This document shows positions 14,989 to 23,313 of a stretch of 38,666 nucleotides of DNA, one piece after another (within the stretch, counting starts at the first letter, position 1; the number at the start of each line of letters is the position of its first letter). Both the position numbers and the translations under genes were made by a program. The notes below the pieces were generated by a model. The model saw nothing but the letters and a program-made list of their open reading frames with translations. It was not told where the DNA came from and did not search any database. This DNA is from Deltaproteobacteria bacterium (GTDB lineage Bacteria > Desulfobacterota > Syntrophia > Syntrophales > UBA2192), in NCBI GenBank assembly GCA_012728915.1, contig JAAYEC010000055.1:1-38666 (forward strand), given 5' to 3'.

Positions 14989-16146
14989 TTAGACCTCCTG
15001 CAGGCCGATCCACACGCTCTCCTTCTCGGGGGCGTCGCTGTTTTTCGTCTTCCAGTAGATTTCCTCGAGAAGCTCCGGGGTCACGTCGCGCCCGCCGATC
15101 CCGGCGACGAAGCCGAACACGGGCGGGTGCCCCGGCGCGTTGCACAGCGCCGCGCGAACCTCCTGCGCGAAGATGCCGCTCGCGCCGAAGGAGAAGTTCC
15201 TGTCGATGACGGCGACCTTCGCGGCCCCGCCGAGCGCCCTGCGGACGGCCTCCACGGGGAAGGGGCGGAAGAGCCGGATCTTGAGGATTCCCAGCCTCTC
15301 TCCGCGGGACCGGAGGTTCTCGAGCAGGCTGCGGGCCGTGCTCGTGACGGTGCCGGAGGTGACGAAGACGATCTCCGCGTCCTCGCAGCGGATAGCCTCC
15401 ACGACACCGTAGCGCCGCCCGAAGACCGCGGCGTACTCGTTCTCGATGCCCGGGAATCTCGACAGGGCCGTTTCCATCGCCTTCGCGATGTCGTGGCGCA
15501 TCTCCATGTAGACGGCGGGGGGCACGAGGGGCCCGAAGGAGCAGGGGGCCGCCGTGTCAAGCTGGAAGCGCGCCTCGTAGGGCGGTAGGAACCGGTCCGC
15601 CTCCTCCTGCTCCGGGACGTCCACGGGCTCGTAGGTGTGGGAGAGAAAGAAGGCGTCGAGGACGACCATGGCAGGCAGGGCCACCGACTCGGCCAGCCGG
15701 TAGGCCTGCAGCGTCGTGTCGATGACCTCCTGGCCGTCTTCGCAGTAGAACTGGATCCAGCCCGTGTCGCGCTGGGCGAGGCTGTCGGTCTGGTCGACCC
15801 AGATGTTCCAGCCCGGGGCGAGGGCCCGGTTCACCTCGGCCATCACGATGGGCAGGCGCGCGCCGGCCGCCCAATGCAGCAGTTCGTGCATCAGGGCGAG
15901 CCCCTGGCCGGAGGTGGCCGTGAAGGTCCTGACCCCCGCGCTCTGCGCCCCGATGAGGGCGGCCATGCAGGAGTGCTCGCTCTCCACCCTTAGGAACCGG
16001 GCGTTCATGGTTCCCGAGGCGCAGTACTCCGACAGAAACTCCACGATATGTGTCTGGGGCGTGATCGGGTAGGCGGAGACGACCTGGACGCGGGCAAGCC
16101 GGACGGCCTCCGCCACGGCCTGGCTCCCTTCAAGGACTCGTTTCAT
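14989..16146 (-). CDS. porA: 2-oxoacid:ferredoxin oxidoreductase, alpha subunit
   Basis: The 385-residue protein has the opening EGSQAVAEAVRLA and AYPITPQTHIVE, followed by ESEHSCMAALIGAQSAGVRTFTAT-type residues of the alpha subunit, which supplies the pyrimidine-binding half of the TPP site. The C-terminal half has the expected transketolase C-like fold (AAKVAVIDRNFSFG). Its ATG overlaps the stop codon of the preceding porD-GltD gene by 4 bp (16143-16146), so the two are translationally coupled. Together with porB, the fused porD and porG it forms a complete complex. Confidence in the subunit is high; the substrate is open (pyruvate, branched-chain or aryl 2-oxoacid). Confidence 0.93.
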   Translation of the reverse strand: MKRVLEGSQAVAEAVRLARVQVVSAYPITPQTHIVEFLSEYCASGTMNARFLRVESEHSCMAALIGAQSAGVRTFTATSGQGLALMHELLHWAAGARLPIVMAEVNRALAPGWNIWVDQTDSLAQRDTGWIQFYCEDGQEVIDTTLQAYRLAESVALPAMVVLDAFFLSHTYEPVDVPEQEEADRFLPPYEARFQLDTAAPCSFGPLVPPAVYMEMRHDIAKAMETALSRFPGIENEYAAVFGRRYGVVEAIRCEDAEIVFVTSGTVTSTARSLLENLRSRGERLGILKIRLFRPFPVEAVRRALGGAAKVAVIDRNFSFGASGIFAQEVRAALCNAPGHPPVFGFVAGIGGRDVTPELLEEIYWKTKNSDAPEKESVWIGLQEV

Positions 16147-17906
16147 CGGTCCTCCTCCTCGAGCGTCATGGCGTTGCGCGGGCATTCCACCACGCAGAGG
16201 CCGCAGCCCTTGCAGTAATCGTAGTTGATGCTCCGGCCCAGGCCCTCTTTCCCGCGGAGAACAGCGAGGTCGGGGCAGAACAGATGGCAGTTGTCGCACT
16301 GGTCGCAGAGACCGCAGTTGAAGCAGCGCTCTGCTTCGCGCATGGCGATGTTGCCCGAGACGCGAAGGTCGATCTCGGCGAAGGACCGGGCTCGCTCCGC
16401 ACGGACGAGGCGCGGCTGCGTCATCCGGGGGGCATACCGGAAGTAGTCGGTGTTGATCTCGCCGTAGACCACGACGTGGCGGTTCCGCAGGCGCCGCTCG
16501 CCGCCCATGTGGATCTCCATGGACAGGGAGGGGCCGACGCCCACCGTGCAGGCCTCGAGCCGGGACAGGATCGAATCGGCCCCTTCACGGAAGAGGGTGT
16601 CCAGGGCGATGGCGGCCTGCTTGCCCGAGGCGATGGCGTGGGCGACGCTCTTGATGCCGTTGGTGAGGTCACCGCCCCGGGCGAGCGCCGGTCTGCCCTC
16701 CCGGAGCGAGAGGGCGCAGTGGGACAGGGCGACGGTTCCCTTGCCGGCCGGGGGCGGGTTGTACCACGCCTCGCCGGCCTCGGCGCCGGTCGCCTTGAAG
16801 AGCCGCTCCGCGACGACGCGGCTCGTCCTGTCGCCGTCGGGCTCGATGCGCCCCCGGCCGCCCTCCTCGCCGGCGATCCTCATGTGGCGCAGGGTGATCC
16901 GGATGCGGCCACCGTCCTTTTCGATCCTCTCGGGGGCCACGAGTTCCTCGAGTTTCACCCCTTCTTCGAGGGCCATCTGCACCTCGTCCCCGAAGGCGGG
17001 CATGTCCTTTCGGCGTCTGCGGTAGAGGATCAGGGCCTCGCCGCCCAGCCGGACGATGCTGCGCGCCACGTCGACGGCCGTGTTCCCCCCGCCGATGATG
17101 ACGGACATTCCCCTGACGTCCGGCGTCTCCCCCCTGCGGATCCGCTCGAGGAACGCGAGCCCGTCGCCCACCCCGTCCAATTCCTCGCCGGGCACGCGGA
17201 GCGCCGTCGTCCGGCCGTGGCCGCAGGCGAGGTAGACGGCGCTGTAGGACGTCTCGAGGTCCCTGAGGAAACCGGGCGTGACGGGGCGCCCCGTGTGGAT
17301 GCGCACGCCCTGTGCCTCGATCCGGGCGATCTCGTGCTGAAGGGCCGCAAGCGGCAGGCGGTACAGGGGGATCCCCCAGCGCAGGATGCCTCCCGCCTCG
17401 GGGGACGCCTCGAAGACGTCGCAGGCGTAGCCGAGCTGCGTGAGGAACCACGCGGCGGCCAGGCCCGAGGGGCCCGCCCCGGCGACGGCGATTTTTTCGG
17501 GCCGGGCGGGAAGCCTTTCCAGGAGGGGCTTGAGGTCGTATCGCTCCGCCGTGTCGGCCAGGAAGCGCTCGACGGCACGGATGGCGATCGGGTCATCGAA
17601 CTCCCCGCGGTTGCAGGAGCCTTCGCAGGGATGGAAGCAGACCCGCCCGCAGACGCCCGGGAAGGGGTTTTCCCGGAGGATCGTCTCCCAGGCCTCCTTG
17701 AAGAGGCCCTGGCTCGTGAGCATCTCGACCTTCCCGATGTCCTCCCCGGCGGGGCAGGCTGCGCTGCAGGGGGCCGTCTTCTCCTCGTACCGGGGGCGCA
17801 GGTAACGCCAGGACCCGGTCTTGTTGCCCTCCGTCGAACGGGTGGAACGGGGCATGATGCGGATGGGGTTTTCCGATTCCGCCCGTGCTTGTGCTTTCTC
17901 TACCAT
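16143..17906 (-). CDS. Fusion of GltD/NfnB-type NAD(P)H:ferredoxin flavoprotein with PorD ferredoxin
   Basis: The 587-residue chain has three parts. Residues ~47-125 are the cysteine-rich N-terminal iron-sulfur domain of glutamate-synthase small subunits (CSAACPAG, CGRVCFHPCEGSC). The middle has FAD (VAGAGPSGLAAAW) and NAD(P) (IIGGGNTAVDVARS) Rossmann motifs. The last ~65 residues are a PorD-like ferredoxin with CFNCGLCDQCDNC and CKGCGLCVVECP. It would let the Por complex exchange electrons with NAD(P) as well as ferredoxin. PadH of Azoarcus phenylglyoxylate:acceptor oxidoreductase is a similar flavoprotein encoded beside the other subunits. ATG 17906 is chosen because AAGGTG lies just upstream; GTG 17915 is the alternative. 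Confidence 0.88.
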   Translation of the reverse strand: MVEKAQARAESENPIRIMPRSTRSTEGNKTGSWRYLRPRYEEKTAPCSAACPAGEDIGKVEMLTSQGLFKEAWETILRENPFPGVCGRVCFHPCEGSCNRGEFDDPIAIRAVERFLADTAERYDLKPLLERLPARPEKIAVAGAGPSGLAAAWFLTQLGYACDVFEASPEAGGILRWGIPLYRLPLAALQHEIARIEAQGVRIHTGRPVTPGFLRDLETSYSAVYLACGHGRTTALRVPGEELDGVGDGLAFLERIRRGETPDVRGMSVIIGGGNTAVDVARSIVRLGGEALILYRRRRKDMPAFGDEVQMALEEGVKLEELVAPERIEKDGGRIRITLRHMRIAGEEGGRGRIEPDGDRTSRVVAERLFKATGAEAGEAWYNPPPAGKGTVALSHCALSLREGRPALARGGDLTNGIKSVAHAIASGKQAAIALDTLFREGADSILSRLEACTVGVGPSLSMEIHMGGERRLRNRHVVVYGEINTDYFRYAPRMTQPRLVRAERARSFAEIDLRVSGNIAMREAERCFNCGLCDQCDNCHLFCPDLAVLRGKEGLGRSINYDYCKGCGLCVVECPRNAMTLEEEDR

Positions 17907-17966
17907 CGGCGTCACCTTGAAAAGAGATCGTGTCGCGGGAATATGTCCGCAATCGTCGGGCGTGTC

Positions 17967-18539
17967 TCAGGCTGCGGGCTTGACGGTCTCCGCAAAATGG
18001 ACGGCCTCGTAGGCCTCCCGGGCGGCCGTGACGTTGCGTTCGGCGTCGCCCGGCAACTCCTCCCGGATGGACGCGACGACGTCCTCGAGGGACGGCATCC
18101 CGAGGACGCGGGCCACCGCCCCCATCATCGAGGTGTTGACGATGGGGTGGGTGCGGCTCCCGATCCGGTTGTTCAGGGCGATGCGGCTGGCGTCGACCCA
18201 GGCGAGCCGGAACCCGGAAAAGGACCCGGCGCCGGTCGGGGCGGCGGGGCTGTTGATGAGCACGGAGCCTCCAGGCTTGAGCCCCCGCGTGACGTCGATG
18301 CCGGACAGAAGCGTCTTGTCGAGGACGACGACGTGGTCCGGGCTGTATACGTTCGTGCGCAAAAGAATCTTCTGCCGGTCCAGCCTCAGGTAGGCCTCCA
18401 CGGGGGCCCCGCGCCTTTCGACGCCGAAGAACGGGAAGCTCTGGACGTGGTAGCCGGCCCGGAAGAAGGCCTTGGACATCAGGATGGTTGCGACGACGGT
18501 GCCCTGGCCGCCGCGGCCGTGAAAGCGGATTTCCAGCAT
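17967..18539 (-). CDS. porG: 2-oxoacid:ferredoxin oxidoreductase, gamma subunit
   Basis: The 190-residue protein begins with the family pattern IRFHGRGGQGTVVATILMS and has FFGVERRGAPVEAYLR, both diagnostic of the gamma subunit, which contributes to CoA binding. It is the first gene of the porG-D-A-B set, with GGGGAGG just upstream of the ATG. The 174-bp gap to the upstream XRE-cupin gene is filled by an octamer-repeat hairpin that could separate or tune the two transcripts. The stop is 60 bp before the fused porD. Confidence 0.93.
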   Translation of the reverse strand: MLEIRFHGRGGQGTVVATILMSKAFFRAGYHVQSFPFFGVERRGAPVEAYLRLDRQKILLRTNVYSPDHVVVLDKTLLSGIDVTRGLKPGGSVLINSPAAPTGAGSFSGFRLAWVDASRIALNNRIGSRTHPIVNTSMMGAVARVLGMPSLEDVVASIREELPGDAERNVTAAREAYEAVHFAETVKPAA

Positions 18540-19557: not shown

Positions 19558-21297
19558 ATGGAAGTATCCACCACAGTCATCATCATCATCGGTTTTCTCA
19601 TTTACATGGGGCTGTACTGGACGTACGGCAAGAAGATCGAAAAGGACGTCGTCAAGGCCGACGACAACAACGCCCCGCCGTCCCAGCGGCTCTACGACGG
19701 CGTCGACTACGTTCCGGCCCACAAGGCGGTCCTCTTCGGCCACCACTTCTCGTCCATCGCCGGCGCGGGGCCCCTCGTCGGACCGGCCATGGCCATGGTC
19801 TGGGGCTGGCTCCCGGGGCTGCTCTGGGTCTGGTTCGGCAACGTGCTGATCGGCTCGATCCACGACTACCTGGCGCTCATGGCCTCGGTGCGCTACGACG
19901 CCAAGTCGGTACAGTTCGTGGCGACAGACCTCATCTCGAAGCGCACGGGCAAGTCCTTCTACTGGATCGTCTTCTTCCTGCTCATTCTCGTCGTGGCGGC
20001 CTTCGCCAACGTCATCGGCTCCATGTTCGCGAGGACCCCGTCGATCGGGTCGGCCTCGATCTTCATGACCATCGCCGCCATCATCCTGGGGGTGCTCATC
20101 TACCAGGTGAAGATGAATCTCACGATGGCCACGATCATCGGCATCGTCCTGATGACCATCGCCATCTGGCTGGGGCCCATGTTCCCCATCCCCATGAGCT
20201 ACGAGGCGTGGATGGTAATCCAGTTCGTCTACATCATCATCGCCGCATCCATTCCGGTCAACTACCTGCTCCAGCCGCGGGACTACCTGAACTCGTTTTT
20301 GCTCTACTTCGGCATCGCCATCGGCTTCATTGCGGCCATGGTGACCTTCAAGGGGATGGAGGCGCCCGCGGTCTCCGCCTTCGCGCCCGTCCTGCTGGGC
20401 AACCAGCCCACGCCCTTCTGGCCGGCGATCCCGCTGGTCATCGCCTGCGGCTCCCTCTCGGGGTTCCACTCGCTGGTGGCCTCGGGGACCTCCTCCAAGC
20501 AGCTCGCGAAAGAAACGGACGCCCTCTTCGTGGGCTACGGCGGCATGTTCACCGAGGGCTTCCTCTCGACGGTCATTATCGTCGCCATCGGCGGCTTCGG
20601 CATGACGGTCATGAAGGCCCAGGCGGCGGCGGCCAACTACAACATCACCCTCGAGGCGGCCAACTGGGCCACCACCTACGCAAAGACGACGGGGGCCCTG
20701 AAGCTGGCGCCCCCCAGCATGATCGTCGAGGCCTTCGGCGTCATGGTGGCCTCCACCTTCCTGTCCTTCATCCCCACGGCGATCGTGAAGGTCATCGCGG
20801 GGCTCTGGATCTCGGCCTTCGCGCTGACGACGCTCGACACGACGAACCGCCTGGCCCGCTACTGCCTCGTGGAGATGCTCGAGCCCGTCCAGAGCAAGCT
20901 GGGAGGTTTCTACAACATCATCACGAACCGCTGGGTGGCCTCGTTCATCCCCGCGTTCCTGGGCATCTACCTGGCCTGGACCGGCCAGTTCAACATCCTC
21001 TGGCCCTCCTTCAGCGCGGCGAACCAGCTCATCGCCTCGATCGCGCTGATGACGGGCGCGGCCTTCGTGGCCAAGAAGATGCAGTCCAAGTTCGCCATCG
21101 TGGCGATCGTCCCCGCCTGGTTCCTGTGGTTCACGGTGACCTGCGCCATCGTCTGGTTCATGTGGGTCGTCATGCCCGGCTCCATCCAGAAGACGCCCGG
21201 GATGGGCTGGACCGTGCAGACCATCATGGCGATCATGCTCGTCCTCAACATTCTCTTCATTGTCGACTTCGTGAAGTCGAGCGGGAAGAAAGGGTAG
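19558..21297 (+). CDS. cstA: CstA-family carbon-starvation transporter
   Basis: This 579-residue polytopic inner-membrane protein has the CstA signature at its start (YDGVDYVPAHKAVLFGHHF, SSIAGAGPLVGPA) and many hydrophobic helices. It is shorter than E. coli CstA (~700) and belongs to the compact form common in anaerobes. E. coli CstA and its relative BtsT transport pyruvate, and CstA has also been linked to peptide uptake. The gene diverges from the XRE-cupin regulator and is near the 2-oxoacid oxidoreductase genes, so pyruvate or another 2-oxoacid is the likely substrate here. GGAGGGGG precedes ATG 19558, and a strong terminator follows. Confidence 0.93.
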   Translation: MEVSTTVIIIIGFLIYMGLYWTYGKKIEKDVVKADDNNAPPSQRLYDGVDYVPAHKAVLFGHHFSSIAGAGPLVGPAMAMVWGWLPGLLWVWFGNVLIGSIHDYLALMASVRYDAKSVQFVATDLISKRTGKSFYWIVFFLLILVVAAFANVIGSMFARTPSIGSASIFMTIAAIILGVLIYQVKMNLTMATIIGIVLMTIAIWLGPMFPIPMSYEAWMVIQFVYIIIAASIPVNYLLQPRDYLNSFLLYFGIAIGFIAAMVTFKGMEAPAVSAFAPVLLGNQPTPFWPAIPLVIACGSLSGFHSLVASGTSSKQLAKETDALFVGYGGMFTEGFLSTVIIVAIGGFGMTVMKAQAAAANYNITLEAANWATTYAKTTGALKLAPPSMIVEAFGVMVASTFLSFIPTAIVKVIAGLWISAFALTTLDTTNRLARYCLVEMLEPVQSKLGGFYNIITNRWVASFIPAFLGIYLAWTGQFNILWPSFSAANQLIASIALMTGAAFVAKKMQSKFAIVAIVPAWFLWFTVTCAIVWFMWVVMPGSIQKTPGMGWTVQTIMAIMLVLNILFIVDFVKSSGKKG

Positions 21298-21341
21298 GGT
21301 ACGGGTATTCCCTTGAGTGTTGAAATGGATTAAAGTGGAGT

Positions 21342-21378
21342 CCCCCCCGTATCCCAACCGGGGTACGGGGGGGATTTT
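21342..21378 (+). terminator. Rho-independent terminator after cstA
   Basis: A 14-bp stem (CCCCCCCGTATCCC with GGGGTACGGGGGGG, one G-T wobble) closes a 4-nt loop and is followed by ATTTTCC. It separates cstA from the trio that begins at 21411, although read-through could link them. Confidence 0.75.
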
Positions 21379-21410: not shown

Positions 21411-21692
21411 ATGTCGCCGTCCGTCCTGGAACATCTTCGACATTTCCTGCAGGGCTTTCGGCAGGGCCAGCGCGAGAAGATTATCGGCCTGACCTGCATG
21501 GAACAGCAGGAACTGGAGAACGTCTTCGCGCTTTTGCTGCTGGGCTCCTTCGTCGGGTTCCCGGCGCCGCCGACGTTCCTGGCCGTGGAACTGCTGCCCT
21601 TCATGGAGCGCGAGATGCAGATCCTCGGGCAGCGCGCCGAGGACGCCTGCGACATGCTGGGGCATATGATGGGAACGCTGGGGGTGGACTGA
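21411..21692 (+). CDS. Unrecognised 93-residue protein of the ArsA-like cluster
   Basis: I do not recognise this protein. It is helical and methionine-rich, with a basic N-terminal helix (RHFLQGFRQGQREK), a hydrophobic middle (FALLLLGSFVGFPAPP) and an acidic, amphipathic C-terminal helix with several cysteines and methionines (MEREMQ, CDMLGHMM). The ribosome site is weak (GGGAGGG about 13 nt upstream). Its stop TGA overlaps the ATG of the ArsA-like ATPase by one base, so the two are translationally coupled, and a physical partnership is likely. The hydrophobic middle could be a membrane-associating or client-binding surface. Confidence 0.6.
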   Translation: MSPSVLEHLRHFLQGFRQGQREKIIGLTCMEQQELENVFALLLLGSFVGFPAPPTFLAVELLPFMEREMQILGQRAEDACDMLGHMMGTLGVD

Positions 21693-22642
21693 TGAGGATC
21701 CTCTTTTACACCGGCAAGGGAGGCGTCGGGAAGTCCACCATGGCAGCCGCGGCGGCATGGCAGCTCTCGAAGAAGAAGCGGGTGCTCGTCGTGTCGCTGG
21801 ATCCGGCGCACAACTTGGGCGATATCTTCTGCGTGCGGCTCAACGGCAGGGAAAAGAGAATGAGCGACAACCTGCTCCTCCGGGAGGTCGATCTGCAGAA
21901 GCTCTCCAGGGATTACCTGGAGCGCGAGATCGGCGTTCTGACCCGGACCTACAGCTACCTGCAGGTGCTCAACCTCGACCGGTACTTCTCGGTGCTGAAA
22001 TACTCGCCCGGCATCGAGGAGTACGCCCTGCTGACGAGCATCGAGGAGACGATCCGGAAGGACGGGGCGAACTTCGACACGGTCATTTTCGACACGCCGC
22101 CCACGGGACTGACCCTGCGCTTTCTCGCGCTGCCGCAGATCACGACCGCCTGGATCGACCGCCTGGCCGGGATCCGCCGGCAGATCCTGGACAAGCGCCA
22201 CACGATCCGGAAGATCCGCGGCCCCGCGACGGAGGAAGAAAAGCAGCGGGAGGAGAAGCTCTCCTACGACGAGAAAGATGATGCCGTGCTGCAGAGGCTC
22301 ATGGCCCTGAAGGCCAATTACGAGTCCCTCACGGGGATCCTGCAGGGACCCGACTGCGGGGTCGTTCTCGTGTTCAATCCCGACATGCTCTCCCTGCGCG
22401 AGTCCGAGAGGCTCGTGGAGGGCCTGCGGGACATCAACCTGCCGCTTCGCCTCCTCATCCAGAACAAGGTCACCGGGGAGAACCTCGCCGTGGCCGACCA
22501 GGTTGCGGCGGAACTTCGCAGAACGGTCGGGGACACACCGCTTCTGCGGGTGGCTCTTTCGTCGAACCTGGCCCGCGGCCTCGATTCGACGCTGTACGAC
22601 ATCCCTGAAGACCTGGTGACGCCACTCGACTGGAGACGCTGA
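21692..22642 (+). CDS. ArsA/Get3-family ATPase
   Basis: This 316-residue single-module ATPase has the deviant Walker A GKGGVGKST (residues 8-16), the ArsA switch motif DPAHNLGD (37-44) and DTPPTGLTLRFLALP near 132. These match ArsA/Get3 and exclude MinD or NifH as a closer relative. No pair of arsenite-binding cysteines of the classical ArsA type is evident, and no arsB or arsR is nearby, so arsenite efflux is unlikely. Get3 proteins deliver tail-anchored membrane proteins; bacterial single-domain homologues are mostly uncharacterised. It is coupled to the 93-residue gene upstream and, with a 2-bp gap, to the membrane protein downstream. Confidence 0.88.
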   Translation: MRILFYTGKGGVGKSTMAAAAAWQLSKKKRVLVVSLDPAHNLGDIFCVRLNGREKRMSDNLLLREVDLQKLSRDYLEREIGVLTRTYSYLQVLNLDRYFSVLKYSPGIEEYALLTSIEETIRKDGANFDTVIFDTPPTGLTLRFLALPQITTAWIDRLAGIRRQILDKRHTIRKIRGPATEEEKQREEKLSYDEKDDAVLQRLMALKANYESLTGILQGPDCGVVLVFNPDMLSLRESERLVEGLRDINLPLRLLIQNKVTGENLAVADQVAAELRRTVGDTPLLRVALSSNLARGLDSTLYDIPEDLVTPLDWRR

Positions 22643-22644
22643 GC

Positions 22645-23313
22645 ATGTTCGAACACGACTACCTCATCTCGGAACCCCTCTTTTGGCTCTTCATCGCTGC
22701 TACGGCGGTTTTGGTCTGGGGTTACTACTGGGGCGAGAAAGAGAACAAGCGCCTCTACCTCTCCGCCTTCAACGGTCTTGTGGACGTCATCAAGCCCGTC
22801 GACCAGACGTTCACGAACATCGGGGGGCTCATCGGCTACCACGGCCATTTCGTCACCCGGAAGGATTCCCCCATCGAGAAGGTGGAGGCCACGATCACCT
22901 TTCTGGCGCGGCAGTCGCTTCTCTACCTCCCCGTGTCGATCCTGATCCGCAAGCACGACCGTCTCTTCGTCACGATCACCATGAGGCAACCGCTCAAGGA
23001 GGAGGGGCACCTCATCGAGGAAAAGTACGCGGGCTACCGGCGCGCCCGGATCACCAACGAGGCCCGCCTCAACCGGGAGCCGATCCGATGGGGCGATTCC
23101 AGCTGGTGCGTCTACTACGAGAGCGGCCGGATGCGGGATCAACTGAAGAAACTGACGGTGAGCCACACCAACCCGGGAATCCTCCGCCACATCGCCGTCG
23201 TTCCCGACCAGAAGAAATGCTTTGTCTTCATGATCCCGAAGAAGGGGCAGGTGAAGGCCTGCTTCGAGCCCGTCTACCGCTGGATCCCCTCGCTCGTGCC
23301 CCCGGCGAAGTGA
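22645..23313 (+). CDS. Unrecognised membrane-anchored protein of the ArsA-like cluster
   Basis: The 222-residue protein has one N-terminal transmembrane helix (PLFWLFIAATAVLVWGYYWG, ~11-30) and a soluble, probably cytoplasmic remainder rich in basic residues. It includes LSAFNGLVDVIKP, GGLIGYHGHF and a C-terminal beta-rich part (FVFMIPKKGQVKACF). I do not recognise a family. It starts 2 bp after the ArsA-like gene, so it belongs to the same operon and may be the membrane dock or client of that ATPase. No cofactor-binding motif is apparent. Confidence 0.65.
   Translation: MFEHDYLISEPLFWLFIAATAVLVWGYYWGEKENKRLYLSAFNGLVDVIKPVDQTFTNIGGLIGYHGHFVTRKDSPIEKVEATITFLARQSLLYLPVSILIRKHDRLFVTITMRQPLKEEGHLIEEKYAGYRRARITNEARLNREPIRWGDSSWCVYYESGRMRDQLKKLTVSHTNPGILRHIAVVPDQKKCFVFMIPKKGQVKACFEPVYRWIPSLVPPAK

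Follow-up and report, generated by a model that had tools for sequence, protein, structure and literature searches.

A gene encoding a CstA-family transporter and the three genes downstream of it form a conserved unit, the last product of which, CstY, is predicted to fold like CCDC47, which in animals and fungi belongs to the machinery for making membrane proteins. The middle gene of the three encodes an ATPase bearing the motifs of the ArsA/Get3 type, and the unit is restricted to genomes that carry CstA. Together, these genes most likely specify an accessory complex dedicated to CstA. The more specific reading, in which the ATPase of a CstA-dedicated membrane complex acts via the small protein CstX to alter the state of CstA, is one whose chances we consider about even. 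The gene unit is known but little studied, and the identification of CstY as a CCDC47-fold protein is new.

The window analyzed here is a stretch of 38,666 nucleotides from a bacterium of the Syntrophales (contig JAAYEC010000055.1 of assembly GCA_012728915.1). The following features of the window are discussed:

19558 to 21297, plus strand: cstA, encoding a CstA-family carbon starvation/pyruvate-peptide transporter of 579 amino acids (Pfam CstA, E 4.7e-129)
21337 to 21378, plus strand: RNA hairpin between cstA and cstX, a probable 3′-end or attenuator element (-43.4 kcal/mol, z -4.0)
21411 to 21692, plus strand: cstX-like gene for a small protein of 93 amino acids, a putative relative of the NCBIfam family cory-CC-star (NF041419 match and helix model)
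21692 to 22642, plus strand: arsA-type gene for a single-domain ATPase of 316 amino acids, TRC40/GET3/ArsA family (TIGR00345, 172.1 bits, and motifs)
22645 to 23313, plus strand: cstY-like gene for a protein of 222 amino acids, with an N-terminal transmembrane (TM) helix and a cytosolic domain of predicted CCDC47 fold (AlphaFold2 model and Foldseek)

The three downstream reading frames are tightly packed, with a 1-bp overlap between cstX and arsA (ATGA) and a 2-bp gap between arsA and cstY, and cstA ends (21297) 113 bp upstream of the start of cstX. The original prediction had described exactly this arrangement, directly after cstA and away from any arsenic gene, and it holds on each count: no arsenic-resistance protein was found among nine proteins scanned between 16 and 28 kb, where the sole arsenic-named match was a weak one to ArrB (50.7 bits against a cut-off of 450) on a generic Fe-S protein. 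The description of the system as unnamed needs correction, since the names CstX and CstY date from 2010 (PMC2963123). On the opposite strand upstream of cstA (16143-18539) lie genes for a PorC-like gamma subunit of pyruvate/2-oxoacid:ferredoxin oxidoreductase and for a fusion of a GltD-like protein with a PorD-like ferredoxin domain; a PuuR-like regulator is also encoded upstream on that strand. The 2-oxoacid oxidoreductase genes would fit CstA-mediated uptake of pyruvate or amino-acid-derived compounds that feed 2-oxoacid metabolism. A phage origin of the unit was rejected following a PHROGs search.

Genes for the 93-residue protein, the ATPase and the 222-residue protein occurred in identical order in all 30 of the first loci recovered from relatives, so the arrangement is not due to chance. 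A scan of 84,980 genomes extended the set to 67 loci, nearly all from Thermodesulfobacteriota and Spirochaetota, a few metagenome-assembled genomes among them bearing other phylum labels. The ATPase is encoded in 64 of the 67 loci, the small protein in 62 and CstA, which sits upstream of the trio, in 57; loci without CstA mostly end at contig edges. Among the three loci without an ATPase, two (L081 and L082) have cstY at the start of the contig, while the third (L097) is a genuine exception. The original prediction proposed a search for conserved neighborhoods with ArsA homologs and cstA, and would have failed if the small and membrane proteins had no homologs beside ArsA-type genes in other genomes; they clearly do have such homologs. 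The near relatives of the window CstY belong to the Syntrophaceae/Syntrophales, and deeper members from other families of the phylum again show the order cstA-cstX-arsA-cstY. This gene order persists in two phyla and in members whose CstY is ~20% identical to that of the window, which supports a complex dedicated to CstA.

Under even sampling the unit is uncommon, with CstY present in 12 of 395 genomes of Thermodesulfobacteriota and 14 of 247 of Spirochaetota, one of the latter being a 29-residue stub. All 13 spirochaete genomes in which the CstY match is longer than the stub also encode CstA, compared with 142 of 247 overall, a co-occurrence with a P of 6e-4 that would hold for independent genomes, which these are not. 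Mirror-tree comparison gave correlations of 0.80-0.89 among the pairwise distances of the four proteins, with no pair singled out. Exceptions to the usual layout occur as well. In four loci (L148, L149, L150 and L153), cstA, cstX and arsA have no cstY alongside, and an additional gene separating cstA from cstX encodes a membrane protein of ~150 residues; in two others (L171 and L172) cstY adjoins cstA in the absence of arsA and cstX. Since units occur without cstY, and CstY-CstA pairs without ArsA and CstX, CstA is the common partner, and the genomic context thereby bears out the suggested link to CstA by marking it as the dedicated partner.

In four spirochaete genomes (L168, L169, L170 and L173), a lone cstY lies between folK and an operon resembling mcsA/mcsB/clpC, names assigned by the look of the sequences rather than by family search; neither arsA nor cstX is beside it, and cstA is located elsewhere in the genome. 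These cases hint at a broader role in proteostasis. Nine loci (L014, L016, L018, L020, L029, L090, L091, L094 and L095) encode second CstY copies, with identities down to 20-24%, either in tandem with the first or on the opposite side of cstA. A search of plasmids found no CstY and one marginal CstX-like fragment.

The intergenic region between cstA and cstX contains a G+C-rich hairpin in nearly all relatives (L031-L096), its position being kept while its sequence varies. When this region was shuffled 40 times, no more than one version folded as well as the native sequence in 44 of 49 relatives. A comparison of the hairpin with Rfam matched no family. Its probable role is to protect the 3′ end of cstA or to attenuate expression of the genes that follow.

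CstX had been described as a small amphipathic protein, in keeping with its model (pLDDT 74.5), in which two long helices (residues 3-48 and 55-89) meet at a conserved bend, G-x-P-(A/S)-PP, with a hydrophobic run. All 37 members of the CstX family match the cory-CC-star model (NF041419; best E 5.7e-7). The window protein scores 22.5 bits against an equivalog cut-off of 80 bits and has no C-terminal CC, and by sequence CstX appears to be a distant relative of this NCBIfam family. Comparison of the model, which is of modest confidence, with the PDB gave no match below E 4.7. Identity with YbdD was rejected; YbdD/YjiX (PF04328) had no match in the genome at E 1. CstX-like small proteins with the motif GDLVGLPLLPPYYSLRLLP were also noted in L157, L160 and other loci, often as tandem pairs; one is encoded next to a distant CstA and another lies close to an ATPase of the FGGKGGLGKTT type.

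The ATPase is a member of the TRC40/GET3/ArsA family, as originally proposed, scoring 172.1 bits against TIGR00345 (cut-off 135) and E 5e-51 against Pfam ArsA_ATPase. At least 95% of 86 sequences conserve the P-loop, the DPAHN sequence of switch I and residues D134-T138 (DTPPT) of switch II. The CXXC zinc motif is found in none of these 86, and in alignments with archaeal 3UG6 and 3ZQ6 a charged segment takes the place of the hydrophobic client insert of Get3 (the TRC40 insert). The missing CXXC does not by itself decide the matter, because some Get3 proteins also lack it (PMC10248533).

The structure of CstY was modeled with AlphaFold2 without templates from 35 window-family sequences (pLDDT 85.8, pTM 0.80). 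A Foldseek search of 350,542 PDB chains placed CCDC47 from 7TM3 (E 2.3e-9), 9I78 (1.0e-6) and 6W6L (4.1e-4) at ranks 1-3, followed after a large gap by rank 4 at E 1e-2. VIA re-alignment gave Z scores of 16.4 (205 of 222 residues, 3.2 Å), 15.0 and 11.1 for CCDC47, and the next structural match was mycobacterial TtfA (PDB 6T84; Z 10.3). The overall arrangement of CCDC47, a TM helix and a cytosolic domain, is reproduced in the predicted model, which ends after a helix of the globular domain (203-217) and has no counterpart of the C-terminal coiled coil of CCDC47.

A sequence signal accompanies this resemblance. The window CstY scores 13.9 bits against PF07946 (CCDC47), below the gathering score of 27.7, and a divergent relative falls just short of it (27.2 bits, E 2.7e-6). 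At E < 0.1, PF07946 matches 27 of 35 and 26 of 37 CstY members (best E 7.3e-6 and 2.5e-6, respectively). The signal is confined to the TM/juxtamembrane block and is lost in TM-less versions. In this block, G30 and N34 of CstY are invariant in bacterial alignments and align with the G and N of a juxtamembrane G-x3-N in human and Chaetomium CCDC47, and human CCDC47 outscores each of 150 shuffles with a PSSM of the CstY family. Applied to 297 genomes, the PF07946 model retrieved one true relative (G185) and two apparent chance matches at the C-terminus (L111 and L112). Single-sequence hhalign of CstY with human CCDC47 was not significant, and sequence-only PDB searches with CstY profiles gave no matches. 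A second block, chosen by eye and pairing residues 84-113 of the window CstY with 222-251 of human CCDC47 (FLARQSLLY/FLKRQDLLN), was equaled in 40 of 20,000 shuffles; it was dropped as proof of homology, since an unbiased scan beyond the TM/juxtamembrane block was marginal (272 of 3000 shuffles, ~0.09).

From the model and the sequence signal together, CstY very probably shares the CCDC47 fold, and common descent of the two proteins is likely. Convergence, in which CstY would share with CCDC47 only a layout of one TM helix and an alpha/beta domain, might explain why the sequence signal is short and why TtfA, no known relative of CCDC47, also matches the model. This explanation is improbable, however, given that the three top matches are CCDC47 from independent structures well separated from rank 4, that the topologies are alike, and that both the invariant G-x3-N and the family profile connect CstY to CCDC47.

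In the mechanism that we favor, CstY would be anchored by its single N-terminal TM helix (N outside), and its cytosolic alpha/beta domain would pack against a multipass protein, here CstA. The single-domain ATPase would act as a homodimer and reach CstA through the helical hairpin of CstX, and ATP would be used to change the state of CstA, energizing or gating it. The arsenical ATPase ArsA energizes or gates ArsB. The RNA hairpin after cstA would serve to hold the three accessory proteins below the amount of CstA. Against coupling to ATP, no ArsA is known to act on E. coli CstA or BtsT, both of which are functional; transport by itself therefore does not require ATP.

A tentative alternative is that the system is a biogenesis factor for CstA, in which the Get3-family ATPase and the CCDC47-like protein would act as a chaperone pair to insert, fold or quality-control the transporter, with CstX as adaptor. 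Such a system would be akin to the GET and PAT factors of eukaryotes, but simpler. The suggested insertion of CstA by this system is possible. The families of the ATPase and CstY, by sequence or fold, handle membrane-protein biogenesis in eukaryotes, CstA as a multipass protein is the client type of the CCDC47 translocon, and the mcsA/mcsB/clpC-like neighbors of the four spirochaete cstY genes point the same way. Weighing against it are the missing zinc CXXC and hydrophobic insert of the ATPase, the brevity of CstY (222 amino acids, without the ribosome-contacting coiled coil), the failure to see an Asterix-like partner, and the many sampled Spirochaetota that have CstA without CstY. The most far-reaching version of this idea, that CstY is a true homolog of CCDC47 and forms with the ATPase a prokaryotic biogenesis module for multipass CstA, the bacterial/archaeal counterpart of supposedly ER-specific factors of eukaryotes, in a fold family of which mycobacterial TtfA would be a third branch, is rather unlikely.

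The original prediction of a Get3-like targeting system thus stands in part: the ATPase superfamily, a small helical partner and a membrane protein with one TM pass, here resembling CCDC47, are as expected, while a generic tail-anchor pathway is not upheld. Family membership and the best PDB sequence matches of the ATPase, which include eukaryotic ARSA1 and archaeal Get3-like proteins, are what a general system for targeting tail-anchored proteins would share, yet such a system is very unlikely, because the ATPase lacks both the zinc motif and a hydrophobic client insert, and because gene order and co-occurrence are strictly tied to CstA. Energizing of arsenic or metalloid efflux, to which the family name of the ATPase is the sole pointer, has a negligible probability: there is no ars gene among the neighbors scanned, the partner is CstA, and the one-domain protein scores 90.4 bits against the model of the two-domain arsenical pump ArsA (TIGR04291, cut-off 650). 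An arsenic role was rejected on these grounds.

A bacterial protein with the fold and topology of CCDC47, encoded next to a Get3-family ATPase and one multipass client candidate, would allow the function and origin of the CCDC47 fold to be studied in a small model open to genetics. CstA transporters for pyruvate and peptide uptake would gain an ATP-dependent partner, and mycobacterial TtfA, essential for MmpL3 function, could join a CCDC47-fold family.

Several known systems resemble parts of this unit. Clusters of ArsA, CstA and CstX were described by Castillo and Saier (2010; PMC2963123), who also noted, in five archaea, a CstY of ~210 amino acids with a single TM helix. From co-evolving trees they proposed that ArsA energizes CstA through CstX. 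The present unit agrees with these in gene content, sizes and order (CstA, ~90-residue CstX, single-domain ArsA of ~300 residues and single-TM CstY, together in an operon that has no ars genes), and the single archaeon in which they saw CstY and CstA unaccompanied by ArsA matches the layout of L171 and L172. CstY was there limited to five archaea and assigned to no family, whereas here it occurs in Thermodesulfobacteriota and Spirochaetota with a predicted CCDC47 fold, the archaeal CstX and CstY being likened to ours by size, topology and context. In E. coli, CstA requires a small partner, YbdD (PMC5847655), which is likewise encoded next door; unlike YbdD (PF04328), which is absent here, the small protein of the window is CstX/cory-CC-star-like, and the described E. 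coli pyruvate uptake system has neither the ATPase nor CstY. Get3/TRC40 shares with the ATPase a single-domain architecture, the P-loop, DPAH of switch I and DTxPTG of switch II, and differs in its CXXC and hydrophobic client insert.

Prokaryotes have been stated to lack components of the PAT complex, including CCDC47 (2022; PMC9630114), the C-terminal coiled coil of which reaches the ribosome exit tunnel (PMC7505659). Like CCDC47 of the PAT complex and multipass translocon (7TM3, 6W6L, 9I78), CstY has a TM helix followed by a cytosolic domain and the G-x3-N motif; unlike it, CstY is bacterial and has no acidic luminal N-terminus, no ribosome-binding coiled coil and no Asterix partner seen. 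No link of either CstY or TtfA to CCDC47 was found in the open-access PMC literature. TtfA serves the MmpL3 transporter as an accessory subunit (PMC6593404). It resembles CstY in its cytosolic fold and in being tied to a large transporter, CstY by context, but is only 10% identical and serves a different transporter. We know of no ATPase partner of TtfA. CstY, TtfA and CCDC47 may belong to a shared fold family that includes accessory proteins of transporters.
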